A stretch of 64,000 bases of DNA, taken from positions 62,001 through 126,000 of the forward strand of contig JAQCEA010000004.1 of NCBI GenBank assembly GCA_027620495.1. Direction: 5' to 3'. Below the pieces are notes generated by a model, which was not told where the DNA came from, made no database searches, and worked only from the letters and a program-made list of their open reading frames with translations. This DNA comes from Pseudomonadota bacterium (GTDB taxonomy: Bacteria; Pseudomonadota; Alphaproteobacteria; Puniceispirillales; Puniceispirillaceae). The translations under genes were made by a program, and so were the position numbers. This document shows, piece after piece, positions 7,784 through 12,040 of the stretch (positions are counted from its first letter, which is position 1; every line of letters begins with the position of its first letter).

Positions 7784-8191
7784 GTGAGATATTTTTTCAG
7801 CGTGTTGCTGGTAACAGCTGGCTTGATGATACATCCGCTTGGATCCCCATCCGCGCATGCGTGGACAGATACAGATCCAACACCGCAAATCAAGCTGGCT
7901 CTGCAATCAGCAATGGCGGCCTTTATTGACAATGCCTCTGATGCGGATGGTGGGTTCCGCTATATCGATCGTGCATCAGGTGCCGTGCGAACGGCGTATC
8001 CCGGATCGATGCATCCAAAAATTATCCCACTTGGCCATGATTATTTTTTATGTATCGAAATGCTCGATGCCACTGGCGCGGTAAAACTTGTTGATTTTTT
8101 GTTGCGGCAGACGGCGGCTGGCTGGCTGGTTGTTGATGTCATCATTGATCGGTGTGATCTCGTCAAAAAAGCGCTGGCCAGCGTGGGATAA
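7784..8191 (+). CDS. small exported protein of unknown function upstream of the phosphatase gene
   Basis: I do not recognise the family. The 135-residue product begins with a clear signal peptide (about 1-26, ending PSAHA) and would be periplasmic. The mature part has two Cys (CIEML, DRCDL) that could form a disulphide. The start is a GTG at 7784, with GGGG about 8 nt upstream. The stop is only 6 bp before the start of the SiaA-like phosphatase, so the two are probably co-transcribed. A role in sensing for the phosphatase's extracytoplasmic domain is possible but is inference from position only. Confidence 0.65.
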   Translation: MRYFFSVLLVTAGLMIHPLGSPSAHAWTDTDPTPQIKLALQSAMAAFIDNASDADGGFRYIDRASGAVRTAYPGSMHPKIIPLGHDYFLCIEMLDATGAVKLVDFLLRQTAAGWLVVDVIIDRCDLVKKALASVG

Positions 8192-8197
8192 ACCTTT

Positions 8198-9679
8198 ATG
8201 GCCACGCTGCAAGTGCCAAAAACACACTATTCTAAATTGCTTGCCTCATGCGGTATCGCGGCATTGCTGATCAGCGCGGTGGCGGTGGCGTCATTCTATG
8301 GCTATCGGCATAACCGGCTTGGCAACAGCCTATCGGTTGATATCAGCAATACCGCCCAACGGATCAGCCCTTTGTTAAATCGGTCATTGCATAGCGGCCG
8401 GCCGCGTGAGGCCCGCCGGTTGCTGGGCATATTTGCTGGTTTGCCCTATGTACGCTGTGTTGACCTTAATGGCCCAACGGGACGCATTATATCTTGGCCA
8501 GCACCCGGTTGTATTTCAACTGGCAACCAGCAGGTGCTGGCATTTGGCAACGGCCCCGAAGACCGCCAACTTGTGGTGCATATCAATGACCATATTTTGC
8601 GGCGCGATCTATTTTTTGAAACCAGCTTATTTGGTGGTGTTCTGGGCATCGTCATGATTTTGATGTTCGTCAGTCTGACCGCATCATTTCGTCATATTGT
8701 TTTGGTGCCGCTTGATGCATTAAAGTCTGCCATGCATGCATCACGCCCGGAACGCCCGGTGCGGGAAAAATTTATCCGCCATGATGAAATTGGTGATCTT
8801 GTGACGGTTTATAATAAACTTGCCGCAACATCACAATATTATATGCGACAGCTCGATCAATCACGGCGCAGCCTGCAAGAACGTGAAGCGCTGTTACAAG
8901 ACAGTAACCGCTATTTGAATGAATCGGTGCAATATGCGTCAACCATACAACGCGCGTTATTGTCTGACCGAAAAACCATTGCCGAAAAACTGGGAAAAAC
9001 GGCGGTGATCTGGCAACCAAAGGATTTTGTTGGCGGCGATTTTTACTGTTTCGGCCAAATCGCGAAACAGGATTTTTTAATATTTTTTGACTGTACCGGA
9101 CATGGAGTGCCGGGGGCGTTGATGACGTTAATTTTGGTGTCGGAAATTGAAAAAATATCAATTGCCGCCAACGCCCCTGTATCGACAGCTGATTTGTTGC
9201 AAACGATTCATATCGGGGTGTGTCGTTCGCTTGGGCTGACCGATTTATCGGCACCTGGCGGCGATGGTCTTGATTGTGCGGTGATCCGGTTTTCTGTTGA
9301 TCGGTCTAACGCGCAATTTTCCTGGGCATCTATGGATCTTCATATTGTGCCAGAGGCTGGGAATTCTTGGCGGTTACGCGGCCAGCGTGTCAGCCTTGGT
9401 TATCAGCTTGGTTCGGATTTGCCGCTATTTGAAACGCACCACGCGCCAATTGAAAAAAACAGCTTTGTGATTGCCAGCGATGGTCTTGTGACACAAGTTG
9501 GTGACACCAGTCGGCGTGCTTTTGGCAGCTGCTGGTTTGTTGCCACATTGGATGATGTTACCGGCAATGATCCGGCGCATTTGGTGCGCGGTCTGGCACG
9601 TGCGCTCAATAACTGGCAGGGGTCACAGGATCGGCGCGACGATGTGACGGTTCTGGCATTCAATCCAACAATGCCCTAG
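8198..9679 (+). CDS. siaA: SiaA-like membrane HAMP-PP2C serine/threonine phosphatase
   Basis: A 493-residue protein that fits the phosphatase of a partner-switching module. It has TM1 at about 13-35, an extracytoplasmic domain of about 110 residues, TM2 at about 146-168 and a HAMP linker ending near HDEIGDLVTVYNKL. A short coiled coil follows (DQSRRSLQEREALL), then a PP2C/SpoIIE catalytic domain from about 270. Metal-binding motifs are present: FVGGDFY, DCTGHGVPGALM, GGDGLD, ASDGL and DRRDDVTVL. In Pseudomonas SiaA has this architecture and dephosphorylates SiaC. Here siaC- and siaB-like genes lie on the opposite strand just beyond. The symbol is by similarity of architecture and context. Confidence 0.85.
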   Translation: MATLQVPKTHYSKLLASCGIAALLISAVAVASFYGYRHNRLGNSLSVDISNTAQRISPLLNRSLHSGRPREARRLLGIFAGLPYVRCVDLNGPTGRIISWPAPGCISTGNQQVLAFGNGPEDRQLVVHINDHILRRDLFFETSLFGGVLGIVMILMFVSLTASFRHIVLVPLDALKSAMHASRPERPVREKFIRHDEIGDLVTVYNKLAATSQYYMRQLDQSRRSLQEREALLQDSNRYLNESVQYASTIQRALLSDRKTIAEKLGKTAVIWQPKDFVGGDFYCFGQIAKQDFLIFFDCTGHGVPGALMTLILVSEIEKISIAANAPVSTADLLQTIHIGVCRSLGLTDLSAPGGDGLDCAVIRFSVDRSNAQFSWASMDLHIVPEAGNSWRLRGQRVSLGYQLGSDLPLFETHHAPIEKNSFVIASDGLVTQVGDTSRRAFGSCWFVATLDDVTGNDPAHLVRGLARALNNWQGSQDRRDDVTVLAFNPTMP

Positions 9680-9771
9680 CCCGCTTATTCTTCTGATTTA
9701 AATTGGATGAATAATTCTGCATTAAAAATTGTTGTTTCCGGGCTTAATGCCCGTGGGATTGTTGTCGCCCC

Positions 9772-9987
9772 TTACATTGATGATTGCACCCACTGCATGG
9801 CATCTTCATCTGGATATTCCCAGATTTCGAACAATGTCGTTGGATCATCGGTGACATGATAGACCCGGTAGGTGGCATCGACAGCAGTAATGCGTTCGGT
9901 TACCAATTTGGTGGCGTTTAAAAATGAGTCTGCATCTTTGGCGGTTTTAAATTTGCGGTGATAAATGCGGGCAAGTTTGCGGTCCAT
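9772..9987 (-). CDS. small protein, possibly an antibiotic-biosynthesis-monooxygenase-like (dimeric alpha/beta) fold
   Basis: A 71-residue product with a ribosome-binding site (AGAGG about 8 nt upstream of the ATG). The pattern of short strands and a helix, ending TTLFEIWEYPDEDAMQWVQSS, resembles ABM-type or related dimeric ferredoxin-like small proteins, but the match is by eye and weak. It is the last gene of the siaB-siaC-cyclase operon, about 85 bp after the cyclase stop. Function is unknown. Confidence 0.55.
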   Translation of the reverse strand: MDRKLARIYHRKFKTAKDADSFLNATKLVTERITAVDATYRVYHVTDDPTTLFEIWEYPDEDAMQWVQSSM

Positions 9988-10071
9988 GAATGGCCTCTTC
10001 TGCTTGTCAAAACAAAGGGCAATGAGCCAGTTTAGCCAAATAAACAGTGGCGGATAATGGCCCCCTATTGG

Positions 10072-11091
10072 CTATCCATCTGGTGCCTTTGTTTGGGTGT
10101 GATCGGTGATCTGTATGGCATCAAGGGCCGAGGTCAAAAGTCTGGTGATGCGGTCACGATCGGTCACATTTGTGGCGTCAAGATATAGTTTGAAGCCATT
10201 TTCATTGCCGACAATCAGATCACTGGTTTGTGTTGTGTCGGCGTTATCGTGCGGATGATATAATTGCACCTTTCTTTGGCGCCCTTGTAATGTCGTGGCG
10301 ATATAAGGCTGGCAACTGATTCGTTGGCAAATCAATTGATATGTGTCTTCCGACAACAGCACCCCGTCAGCTGGACATAAGGCTTGGATGCGGGCGGCCT
10401 CATTCACCACATTGCCAAGCGCGGTATAATGCAGGCGGTTCTGCGAGCCAATATTGCCAACTGTGCAAAATCCAGTGCTGATGCCGATGCGAATATGCAT
10501 AGGCATGCGGATGCCAGAGGCGGCCCATTCGGAGTGCAATGCGGTTAATCTTTGCTGCATTTCCAGCCCCATCAAGGTGGCGGCACAGGCATCTTCGGCG
10601 CTGCCTTTGCTATCTGGGTCACCAAAAAAAATGACCAGCGCATCACCAATAAACTGGTCCAATGTGCCACCCCAGCGATGACAGATTTTTGTCATTTCGG
10701 TGAAATAGGCATTCATTAATGATGCCAACTGTTCTGGTTCTAGCTGTTCGGCCAGCGCGGTAAATTCAACAATATCTGAAAAAAACAAGGTGAGTTTGGC
10801 GCGTTTTGCCGCTTGCAAATTTTGCGCACGGCCCTCTAACAACCGGTGATAGACGGGTTGCGGCACGAATCTGGACAGATTGTCACAAAGCTGTTCAAGC
10901 GCTGCGTTGCTTGTTGCCAGCTTGGCGGCATTGGCATCTGCCATTTTGACAAGCCGGTTTAATTGGCGGGTCTGCCGTTTGTGCTGTTTTAACAGATGTT
11001 GATAGGCATCGCGCAGGGTGGCCGGGTCCGAACTGCCAGCAAGGATATCATCAAAATTATATGGAAAATGCGGGTTAAGAGAATCAGCCAT
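10072..11091 (-). CDS. class III adenylate/guanylate cyclase, predicted output of the Sia-like switch
   Basis: A 339-residue soluble protein. Residues 1-100 include a coiled-coil stalk (about 28-72) and the linker SRFVPQPVYHRLLEG common in bacterial cyclases. The class III catalytic domain follows. Metal-binding Asp106 (FFSDIVEF) and Asp150 (FIGDALVIFFG) are present, as are Asn230 and Arg234 (NVVNEAAR), which support the transition state. The residue that normally reads the base, Lys in DKFIGD, is Gln146 here, so ATP versus GTP preference is open. The ATG at 11091 overlaps the siaC stop by 8 nt (ATGGCTGA), implying translational coupling. A longer reading starting inside siaC is unlikely. No membrane segment is seen, so input must come from partner proteins. 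Confidence 0.9.
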   Translation of the reverse strand: MADSLNPHFPYNFDDILAGSSDPATLRDAYQHLLKQHKRQTRQLNRLVKMADANAAKLATSNAALEQLCDNLSRFVPQPVYHRLLEGRAQNLQAAKRAKLTLFFSDIVEFTALAEQLEPEQLASLMNAYFTEMTKICHRWGGTLDQFIGDALVIFFGDPDSKGSAEDACAATLMGLEMQQRLTALHSEWAASGIRMPMHIRIGISTGFCTVGNIGSQNRLHYTALGNVVNEAARIQALCPADGVLLSEDTYQLICQRISCQPYIATTLQGRQRKVQLYHPHDNADTTQTSDLIVGNENGFKLYLDATNVTDRDRITRLLTSALDAIQITDHTQTKAPDG

Positions 11092-11473
11092 TTTCAGATA
11101 GTTTGGCAATGGTAATCTGCACATGTTCCAGATCGATGGCCAAATCCTCGGCAAACTCTCGCGTGATATCGTCGTCATCGTCGCAAAACCAGATGATCTG
11201 AATGTTGGCACCGTCTGCTGCCCGTGCATCAAAAAGATCGCATAATTCAGTCAAAGCCCGCGCAGAAGACGAATTGAAATAAATCAGCTTGATTTCAACT
11301 GTGAGGGTGGCACCAGCCTCAGTCAGATAGGTATTTACCGCCTCCATAACCGGCTGACAAAATCTGCTGACATCTTCTGGATAGGATTCGCCATCAAGAA
11401 GCAATTTACCAGCCGCCGGGTCAAATATGATTTCAGGTGTCCGCGCGGTTGCGGCCAATGTCAATTTTTCCAT
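11084..11473 (-). CDS. siaC: SiaC-family (DUF1987) switch protein
   Basis: A 129-residue protein matching the SiaC/DUF1987 family: the N-terminal segment TARTPEIIFDPAAGKLLLDGESYPED and the central YFNSSSARAL are typical. In Pseudomonas, SiaC is phosphorylated by SiaB on Thr68 and dephosphorylated by SiaA, and the unphosphorylated form activates the diguanylate cyclase SiaD. Here residues 68-70 are Ser-Ser-Ser in that place, so a serine would take the phosphate. The acidic run DDDDD near residue 100 is notable. It lies between siaB (12-bp gap) and the cyclase (8-nt overlap), which points to the cyclase as its target (inference). Confidence 0.88.
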   Translation of the reverse strand: MEKLTLAATARTPEIIFDPAAGKLLLDGESYPEDVSRFCQPVMEAVNTYLTEAGATLTVEIKLIYFNSSSARALTELCDLFDARAADGANIQIIWFCDDDDDITREFAEDLAIDLEHVQITIAKLSENG

Positions 11474-11485
11474 GATGACAGCCTC

Positions 11486-12040
11486 CTAAACGCCTGCCTT
11501 GATCATGATAAAGCAGCAATCCTCGCCGGTGTCTTTGATGGCACATTGCAAGGGTGTTGATGATCGGCGGGCGATTTCAATCAACCCAATCGAGGCGCCT
11601 TTGCTTGCGTTATCTGGTGGCTGCCTCAATCGCTCATAATAAATCTGCCGCAATTCCTCGGCAGACTTAGTATTGAGAAAATTCACTTTTTCCTGCAAGG
11701 CATTGGCTTCGTCATTTGTCACATAATTGCCGGTGAGCAGATTAATCTGCTGGCCATTTTGCGCGACCAGCACAAGGCCAACAGGTTTTTGCGCTGGCAT
11801 AGACAGGCTGGGCTGCGGCCCTTCATGTCCATAGCGAATGACGTTCTGCATCAATTCAACAAACACTGAAAACAGGTTTCTGACTTGATTTCTGTCATGT
11901 GATTTGACCAACAATTGTTGACGCAAGGTATCGCCAATGGCTTGCAAGATGTCTTCGGTAACATAACCGCTATAGGTCAGGACAAAATCATCTTCAATCA
12001 GCAGGCTGGCAAAATGGTGAAACCTGTCAAATTCCATCAT
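11486..12040 (-). CDS. siaB: SiaB-like GHKL-fold protein kinase
   Basis: A 184-residue protein of the SiaB family, a histidine-kinase-like ATPase fold that phosphorylates SiaC. An N-box is visible at FVELMQNVIRYGHEG (about 58-72), and a glycine-containing ATP-lid segment at SKGASIGLIEIARR (about 148-161). No sensor, transmembrane or dimerisation domain is present, as expected for a partner-switch kinase. AGGG precedes the first of two adjacent ATGs at 12040. It is the first gene of the leftward operon siaB-siaC-cyclase. The 187 bp to the divergent acuI would hold its promoter. Confidence 0.85.
   Translation of the reverse strand: MMEFDRFHHFASLLIEDDFVLTYSGYVTEDILQAIGDTLRQQLLVKSHDRNQVRNLFSVFVELMQNVIRYGHEGPQPSLSMPAQKPVGLVLVAQNGQQINLLTGNYVTNDEANALQEKVNFLNTKSAEELRQIYYERLRQPPDNASKGASIGLIEIARRSSTPLQCAIKDTGEDCCFIMIKAGV

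Follow-up and report, generated by a model that had tools for sequence, protein, structure and literature searches.

A Sia-type partner switch with a class III nucleotide cyclase as its probable output in a SAR116-type alphaproteobacterium

Introduction

The SiaABCD system of Pseudomonas aeruginosa consists of the phosphatase SiaA, the kinase SiaB, the protein SiaC and an output enzyme, the GGDEF protein SiaD, which is encoded beside siaC and carries a stalk motif (PMC8457831, PMC7647112). In the crystal complex, SiaC grips the helical stalk of SiaD, and T68 of SiaC lies between the helices and contacts S82 and Q86 (PMC8457831). Up to now, SiaC was known to control this one enzyme class, through one crystal structure. 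Here we analyzed a 64,000-nt stretch of DNA (hereafter the window; contig JAQCEA010000004.1 of assembly GCA_027620495.1, positions 62,001 to 126,000) from a SAR116-type alphaproteobacterium. One of its loci encodes SiaB, SiaC, a soluble class III nucleotide cyclase and a SiaA-type phosphatase. The locus shares with SiaABCD the three switch proteins and a gene beside siaC for an enzyme with the stalk motif. It differs in its predicted output, which is a class III cyclase and not a GGDEF enzyme; in the number of docking motifs, one being found here and two in SiaD; in the phosphorylation site of SiaC, which is Ser in the window and Thr in P. aeruginosa; and in its siaA, which is convergent with the other genes and paired with a gene for a small secreted protein.

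Two other described systems, HptB-HptR-HsbA/HsbD and BgrSTUWV/BgrR, likewise modulate a nucleotide-messenger enzyme through a phospho-controlled STAS-like partner, but they use STAS proteins rather than DUF1987 proteins and have GGDEF outputs (PMC8457831). According to one survey, PP2C/kinase/STAS sets have merged with cyclic di-GMP enzymes (PMC9239204), and DUF1987 proteins, the family of SiaC, have been suggested to be common modulators of adjacent proteins (PMC8457831). Within the literature searched, which lacked most subscription journals and bioRxiv, we found no description of a link between SiaC and a class III cyclase. An earlier note on this DNA, made from its letters alone, knew of no described case; none was found in that literature, but the case is not unique, class III cyclases being one of at least four kinds of output. 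The switch itself is known. What differs here is the predicted output, which is not SiaD, and the shared docking stalk is the most general result.

The switch proteins and the docking stalk

The product of siaB matched the Pfam family DUF6272 (PF19788) with an E-value (E) of 5.1e-34, which places it among the SiaB-type kinases. It scored 150 bits against the NCBIfam SiaB-family kinase model (NF038262, cut-off 85) and stayed below the cut-off of the equivalog model NF038264. It also matched chain A of the structure 6kko (E = 4.1e-16), which was deposited as a 'putative serine phosphatase' and which we read as SiaB. Its Glu62 sits in a motif that aligns with the region of the proposed catalytic Glu61. 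The product of siaC matched PF09345 over the cut-off (E = 9.5e-34) and the SiaC equivalog model NF038265 below its cut-off (E = 3.4e-24). A phmmer search aligned it without gaps to a chain of 6kko, 6kkp and 7e6g (E = 2.8e-13). Its Ser68 stands at the position of the phosphorylated Thr68 of P. aeruginosa, so a phosphorylatable residue is present, and the protein has Y65, N67, S68, S69 and W95. The putative SiaA matched SpoIIE (PF07228) over the cut-off (E = 1.4e-11). The SiaA model NF038263 aligned to its residues 144-489 (E = 6.5e-48) with 164 bits, far below the equivalog cut-off of 700. Hydrophobic peaks near residues 14 and 144 are consistent with two membrane helices, and Pfam called no HAMP domain in this protein at an E-value of 0.01. 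By homology, the SiaABC partner switch is identified by its parts. The earlier note had named the kinase, the SiaC/DUF1987 protein and the PP2C phosphatase, and all three were borne out by these family searches.

The three genes siaB, siaC and cyclase follow each other in this order in a minus-strand operon. The stop codon of siaC and the ATG of the cyclase (at 11091) overlap by the 8 nt ATGGCTGA, as had been noticed before. A longer cyclase frame with a TTG start, reaching to 11232, was read as an open-frame artefact.

Natural fusions of the switch proteins were seen in other loci. L063:7174-8208 (genome G067) encodes SiaB and SiaC in one frame, and L128 and L283, both of Magnetococcales, encode PP2C and SiaB in a single frame of 629 amino acids.

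The N-termini of the GGDEF partners of SiaC and of the siaC-linked cyclases have a pattern in common, L-L-x-x-Y-x-x-L-x-(R/K)-x-x-x-R-L-v-r-l-S-D-R. A stalk profile made from GGDEF partners only (29 segments from 22 proteins) was searched against 6388 open reading frames (ORFs) of 100 loci. Beyond the training set it found 44 ORFs at E ≤ 0.01, and 42 of them were within 1.5 kb of siaC. The remaining two were a PP2C gene at a distance of 5.7 kb from siaC and a cyclase (L067) whose neighboring siaC is cut by the contig end. These loci have 19 class III cyclase ORFs; the profile matched 17 and missed those of L058 and L055, the latter being masked. For the window cyclase, the E-value was 0.0063 in this set of ORFs. 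Its N-terminus alone scored 16.7 bits, and none of 4000 shuffled sequences scored as high (maximum 7.3 in 2000 plain shuffles and 13.2 in 2000 heptad-phase shuffles).

Profile comparison by hhalign aligned the N-termini of the SAR116 cyclases with those of the GGDEF partners over 66 columns (probability 95.8, E = 8.2e-9). The curated SiaD model (NF038266) matched residues 27-142 of the window cyclase weakly (E = 0.0012, 18 bits, cut-off 290). In a structure model, residues 23-72 form a single helix, with blocks of the predicted local distance difference test score at about 58-79. Pfam found Guanylate_cyc (PF00211; E = 8.6e-25) and no other family in this protein, in agreement with the earlier description of a soluble class III cyclase with a stalk and no GGDEF domain. 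At the sequence level, these results show that the window cyclase carries a SiaD-type SiaC-docking stalk.

Distribution of the stalk and of its output enzymes

We compared class III cyclases with and without a siaC nearby. After identical domains, fragments below 130 residues and masked sequence (including L055) had been dropped, 150 cyclase matches gave 128 rows, 46 linked to siaC and 82 others. At 8 bits or more, the GGDEF-only profile matched 42 of the 46 linked cyclases and one of the 82 others. A second profile, A3, a 23-row stalk alignment that includes ten of the 46 linked cyclases, matched 43 of 46 and one of 82 at 10 bits or more. The sole unlinked stalk cyclase is that of L067, beside its cut siaC. 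With A3, three linked cyclases were missed, two of which are encoded on the opposite strand and do not belong to the cluster. 'Unlinked' means that no siaC was seen in the DNA examined, mostly a flank of 1.5 kb; therefore, a siaC further off would be missed.

Matches to SiaC were found in 67 of 398 genomes of a phylum sample and in 18 of 136 genomes of the order. With A3, the stalk was found in 58 of the 398 genomes. All 58 were among the 67 with SiaC, and none were among the 331 without it (Fisher test, P = 1.3e-60). Of 83 stalk matches in this sample, 60 were within 3 kb of siaC, 58 of them on the same strand, and the rest were elsewhere in SiaC-bearing genomes. In the order, nine of the 11 genomes with a stalk match have SiaC, and the other two gave weak partial matches (E about 6e-4). 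Among a further 385 Alphaproteobacteria, 12 of 13 stalk matches had siaC and siaB in the locus; the thirteenth was weak and covered 23 positions. Of these 12 genomes, seven had not been part of either of the earlier stalk searches. At most 18 candidates per genome were scored in the phylum sample and 19 in the further Alphaproteobacteria.

Within 3 kb of siaC we counted 49 distinct cyclases, and 45 of them were downstream on the same strand, an arrangement that is not due to chance. Of these 45, 43 have the stalk, and in 40 of the 43 the gap to siaC is 30 nt or less or the genes overlap. Such pairs occur in Ruegeria, Palleronia, Roseospirillum, Magnetovibrio, Microvirga, Azospirillum canadense and Limnohabitans (the Limnohabitans stalk is weak, at about 15 bits). 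As judged from these matches, many Alphaproteobacteria share the arrangement, and some other lineages have it too.

Class III cyclases are not the only enzymes with this stalk. Among 80 siaC ORFs of the phylum survey, the stalk partner within 3 kb was a GGDEF protein in 22 cases, a GAF-HD protein in 22, a class III cyclase in nine, a histidine kinase in four and a cut GAF protein in one. In 80 named loci, a set biased by its choice for similarity to cyclase-linked SiaC, the partner was a class III cyclase in 32, a kinase in 29, a GGDEF protein in seven and a GAF-HD protein in four, and eight had none. Locus L244 was counted under histidine kinases because its best stalk is in the kinase, though a stalk cyclase also adjoins siaC. 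Partner classes were taken from our own profiles, with a Pfam check on nine partner proteins. By these assignments the stalk is portable as a module, with at least four types of output fused to it: GGDEF proteins, class III cyclases, GAF-HD proteins and histidine kinases.

Counted from the stalk Asp, the first catalytic Asp followed at a distance of 54, 61 or 68 in 36 of 41 distinct cyclases. The other spacings were 55 (one), 56 (one) and 65 (three, of a different cyclase type), and L134 was left out of the count for want of the catalytic Asp pattern. For the GGDEF partners we measured from the stalk Asp to the Asp at the domain start and obtained 20, 27 or 48 in 21 of 22; in the exception, the count began at the first of two motifs. 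Steps of seven are expected of a coiled coil that transmits its register, and the spacing suggests such a role. In engineered phytochrome-cyclases a related dependence on length was found in some but not all constructs (PMC5995499). Because related sequences owe shared lengths to common descent, the independent evidence is the three length classes in each enzyme family.

In a tree of 128 catalytic domains, the SAR116 cyclases with a Gln at the base-selecting Lys site formed one clade of eight rows, with an SH-like approximate likelihood ratio test support of 99. This clade nests in one of 43 rows, together with 31 other linked and four unlinked cyclases. We call the larger clade CyaB-like after the solved structure closest to the window enzyme, P. 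aeruginosa CyaB (3r5g), which is itself absent from the tree. The linked cyclases of G236, G264, G280 and Granulosicoccus fall elsewhere. A single origin of 45 linked cyclases was rejected by an approximately unbiased test (P = 3.5e-5), for which two stalk-less cyclases on the opposite strand had been set aside beforehand. The tree was a quick one (LG+G4) with long branches, and the tested group was named from the data. These results support more than one recruitment of cyclases to SiaC, the number being uncertain. A genome search for such pairs and a tree had been suggested in the earlier note; the pairs recur, and the tree supports more than one origin.

Catalytic site, product and receptor

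P. aeruginosa CyaB (3r5g) has the solved catalytic domain closest to that of the window cyclase, both by sequence (E = 7.2e-54) and by its model (Foldseek E = 1.7e-22; root-mean-square deviation 1.5 over 189 columns; 45% identity). Full-length CyaB is membrane-anchored; the window enzyme is predicted to be soluble, with a SiaC-docking stalk. The window cyclase keeps Asp106, Asp150, Thr223, Asn230 and Arg234. We take D106 and D150 to be the metal-binding residues and N230 and R234 to be the transition-state residues. The enzyme looks catalytically competent.

In adenylate cyclases the base is selected by Lys plus Asp/Thr, and in guanylate cyclases by Glu plus Cys/Ser (PMC7384201). The window cyclase has Gln146 at the Lys site, where CyaB has Lys, and Thr223 at the second position, which corresponds to neither pair. 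The motif GTLDQF(I/V)GDA, with this Gln, is present in eight of the nine readable siaC-linked stalk cyclases of the order (the L055 cyclase is masked and not among them). The ninth, that of L064 (G103), has Lys, is on the opposite strand and falls outside the Gln clade. Among the 82 unlinked rows, Gln was seen at this site in L067 only, itself one of the eight. Rv0386 may be a precedent for Gln at this site, and no paper on SAR116 cyclases was found in the literature searched. The Ruegeria cyclases of L258 and L285 have Lys there. The SiaC-linked cyclases of L103 and L138 have Ala at the same site (GTIDAFIGD), and that of L136 has Asn. By alignment, the substrate sites vary among SiaC-linked cyclases. 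With Gln in this clade where ATP selection calls for Lys, the base of the product is uncertain.

We also searched for the target and the receptor within the genomes. No GGDEF domain was matched in 15 of the order's 18 SiaC-bearing genomes, the window genome being one of these 15; with the same search, eight of 14 control genomes were positive. Thus, a hidden GGDEF target of SiaC was rejected at the sensitivity of this search, and the earlier note's own alternative, a GGDEF partner elsewhere in the genome, falls with it. The window genome has one class III cyclase and one stalk match, and both are the window enzyme.

The cyclic-nucleotide-binding domain PF00027 was found in nine of the same 15 genomes; the window genome and five more gave no match. 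As candidates for CRP-type receptors in the window genome, PF13545 gave three partial matches within its positions 18-64. One was just over the cut-off, and all three were read as other helix-turn-helix proteins. The window genome is rated 100% complete. In genome G116 (contig 16), L066:943-2489 holds a second pair of siaB and siaC. The next gene overlaps it by 4 nt and encodes a short cyclic-nucleotide-binding protein; a second stretch of this domain follows, so that SiaC is encoded there with cyclic-nucleotide receptors instead of a cyclase. The earlier note expected cyclic AMP (cAMP) or cyclic GMP as the output. The cyclase stands, but neither product is established, given the Gln at the Lys site and a genome where no PF00027 match was found.

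Alternative explanations and significance

We consider it about 80% probable that the locus is a Sia-type partner switch whose output is the class III cyclase, gripped at its stalk by SiaC. By homology to SiaABCD, SiaB would phosphorylate SiaC at Ser68. The membrane protein SiaA would sense a signal, perhaps through the secreted small protein, and SiaC would then be dephosphorylated. As with SiaD in the 7e6g complex, unphosphorylated SiaC would take hold of the parallel stalk helices of the cyclase, and the grip would fix the register of the coiled coil so that the catalytic dimer becomes active. Phosphorylated SiaC would release the stalk. The product would be a cyclic nucleotide of uncertain base. 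The stalk would be a reusable plug that lets a single kind of switch act on four or more kinds of output enzyme. That a Sia switch is plugged into a class III cyclase had been proposed in the earlier note, and the SiaD-type stalk, the lack of a GGDEF match in the genome and the recurrence of the arrangement all speak for it.

Some of our observations weigh against this reading. The binding of SiaC to the cyclase, the sign of its effect and the product are inferred. Of the 11 SiaD-contact residues of SiaC that were compared, only five are identical in the window (Y65, N67, S69, D79 and D114), siaA lies outside the operon, and with no PF00027 match the window genome has no known receptor. The A3 profile was built from siaC-adjacent ORFs; therefore, the independent tests are only the absence of the stalk elsewhere and the seven new genomes. 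In the phylum survey, 22 of the 80 siaC ORFs had no stalk ORF within 3 kb. More such points are given below with the explanations that they favor.

It is possible that SiaC binds the stalk and represses the cyclase, or merely tethers or localizes it. Among the outputs considered, measurements are known to us for SiaD only. The window stalk differs from SiaD at the positions of S82, R84 and Q86, and most linkers of the window clade fall short of those in the other linked cyclases of the larger clade by 7 or 14 residues. The spacing in steps of seven suggests, however, that the catalytic dimer is set to the same register, and the effect on SiaD is activation (PMC8457831); we regard a reversed sign as unlikely. 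It is also conceivable that the cyclase is a mere neighbor and that SAR116 SiaC acts on the small downstream protein or another protein without a stalk. Six genomes of the order have siaB, siaC and a PP2C gene with no linked cyclase (G067, G116 on contig 30, G119, G129, G130 and G133). A genome-wide search found no stalk match in any of the six and no class III cyclase in G067, G119 and G133, and G119 and G067 are 99% complete. In L061, the gene for that small protein directly follows siaC. On the other side, nine SiaC-bearing genomes of the order gave a clear stalk match; in every one it is the sole match and lies in a cyclase beside siaC, and the stalk and SiaC co-occur genome-wide. This explanation seems quite improbable to us.

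The window copy might instead be a decaying remnant, in which the ancestral wiring is losing its function. Its stalk reads A-D-A-N-A where SiaD has S82-D83-R84-Y85-Q86, so that the equivalents of S82 and Q86 are both Ala. The SiaD variant S82A-Q86A still binds SiaC, in a less stable complex and with lower activity (PMC8457831). No PAS domain was called in the window SiaA, whereas its relative in L051 has one; the small downstream protein ends about 30 residues early by alignment with its relatives, through an early stop; and SiaC is absent from all 15 other genomes of the genus in the sample of the order. Against decay, siaA, siaB, siaC and the cyclase are all open frames, and the metal, Asn and Arg residues of the cyclase and Y65-N67-S68-S69 of SiaC are kept. 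We think a remnant very improbable. That the stalk is a generic coiled coil and its neighborhood incidental is strongly disfavored. Both enzyme classes often have helical linkers, and the best heptad-phase shuffle fell 3.5 bits short of the real score. Yet none of the 2000 heptad-phase shuffles equaled it, the only unlinked cyclase with the motif lies beside a cut siaC, and the stalk was seen in no SiaC-negative genome of the phylum sample.

If SiaC grips the cyclase as we propose, the docking site, read as a sequence motif, predicts targets among diguanylate cyclases, class III cyclases, GAF-HD proteins and histidine kinases, and the specificity of the whole partner-switch family becomes directly testable. 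The fusions of stalk and catalytic domain in heptad steps are a natural set for studying how coiled coils drive cyclases. In SAR116, where we found no GGDEF proteins, the switch may be a route from a membrane signal to a nucleotide, with both product and receptor in question. More tentatively, SiaC may be a general adaptor that uses a portable stalk and its heptad register, and the always-Gln clade, as its main output in SAR116, may make a messenger that is not ordinary cAMP, or that is read by a receptor of an unknown kind. In some SAR116 genomes of this clade, a recognized cyclic-nucleotide receptor was not detected. If true, this would mean an unusual messenger or an unrecognized receptor in ocean bacteria where no GGDEF enzymes were found.

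Layout of the locus and flanking genes

The features of the locus are listed in Table 1. The siaA gene is convergent with the siaB-siaC-cyclase operon, and a small gene lies between them. Named relatives of the locus include 'SAR116 cluster bacterium' MED-G116 (L220) and MED595 (L237).

Table 1. Features of the Sia locus in the window.
Feature	Position	Strand	Basis or remark
Secreted/periplasmic small protein, 135 amino acids, GTG start, signal-like N-terminus	7784..8191	+	Directly before siaA
SiaA-type membrane PP2C phosphatase, 493 amino acids	8198..9679	+	SpoIIE, NF038263
Small soluble protein downstream of the cyclase, 71 amino acids	9772..9987	-	26 ORFs in same-order loci
Class III nucleotide cyclase, soluble, 339 amino acids	10072..11091	-	PF00211
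Predicted SiaC-docking stalk, cyclase residues 27-68	10888..11013	-	GGDEF-trained stalk profile, hhalign, model
SiaC (DUF1987/PF09345), predicted phosphoprotein	11084..11473	-	PF09345
SiaB-type kinase (DUF6272)	11486..12040	-	PF19788, NF038262

The secreted protein had no Pfam or NCBIfam match at an E-value of 0.01 and so no family name. A profile made for it found 14 ORFs in the loci examined (the window, L051, L057/L220, L063, L107, L250, L252, L258, L271, L272, L273, L284 and L285; L057 and L220 are one genome). All 14 are beside a siaA-type PP2C gene and 13 are in loci with siaC and a class III cyclase; for this reason the protein probably works with SiaA. It belongs to the Sia cluster as a co-conserved part, and the interval marked in the earlier note (7784-12040) begins with its gene. 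Its model has an NTF2/cystatin-like fold with weak matches (best Foldseek E = 6.1e-3), and the best Z-score of 8.1 is within the range of common arrangements.

The small downstream protein was found in 26 ORFs of 12 distinct loci, several represented two or three times, all of the same order; its relatives have 100-130 amino acids. It lies between the cyclase and siaA, with examples at L061:8239-8541 and L060:7537-7839, and it is kept where the cyclase is missing, as in L061, where it comes right after siaC.

At L080:14007-15038 (minus strand), a PP2C-type protein bears a putative SiaC-docking stalk, 5.7 kb from siaC. It is possible that this protein is a feedback or second-layer target of the switch.

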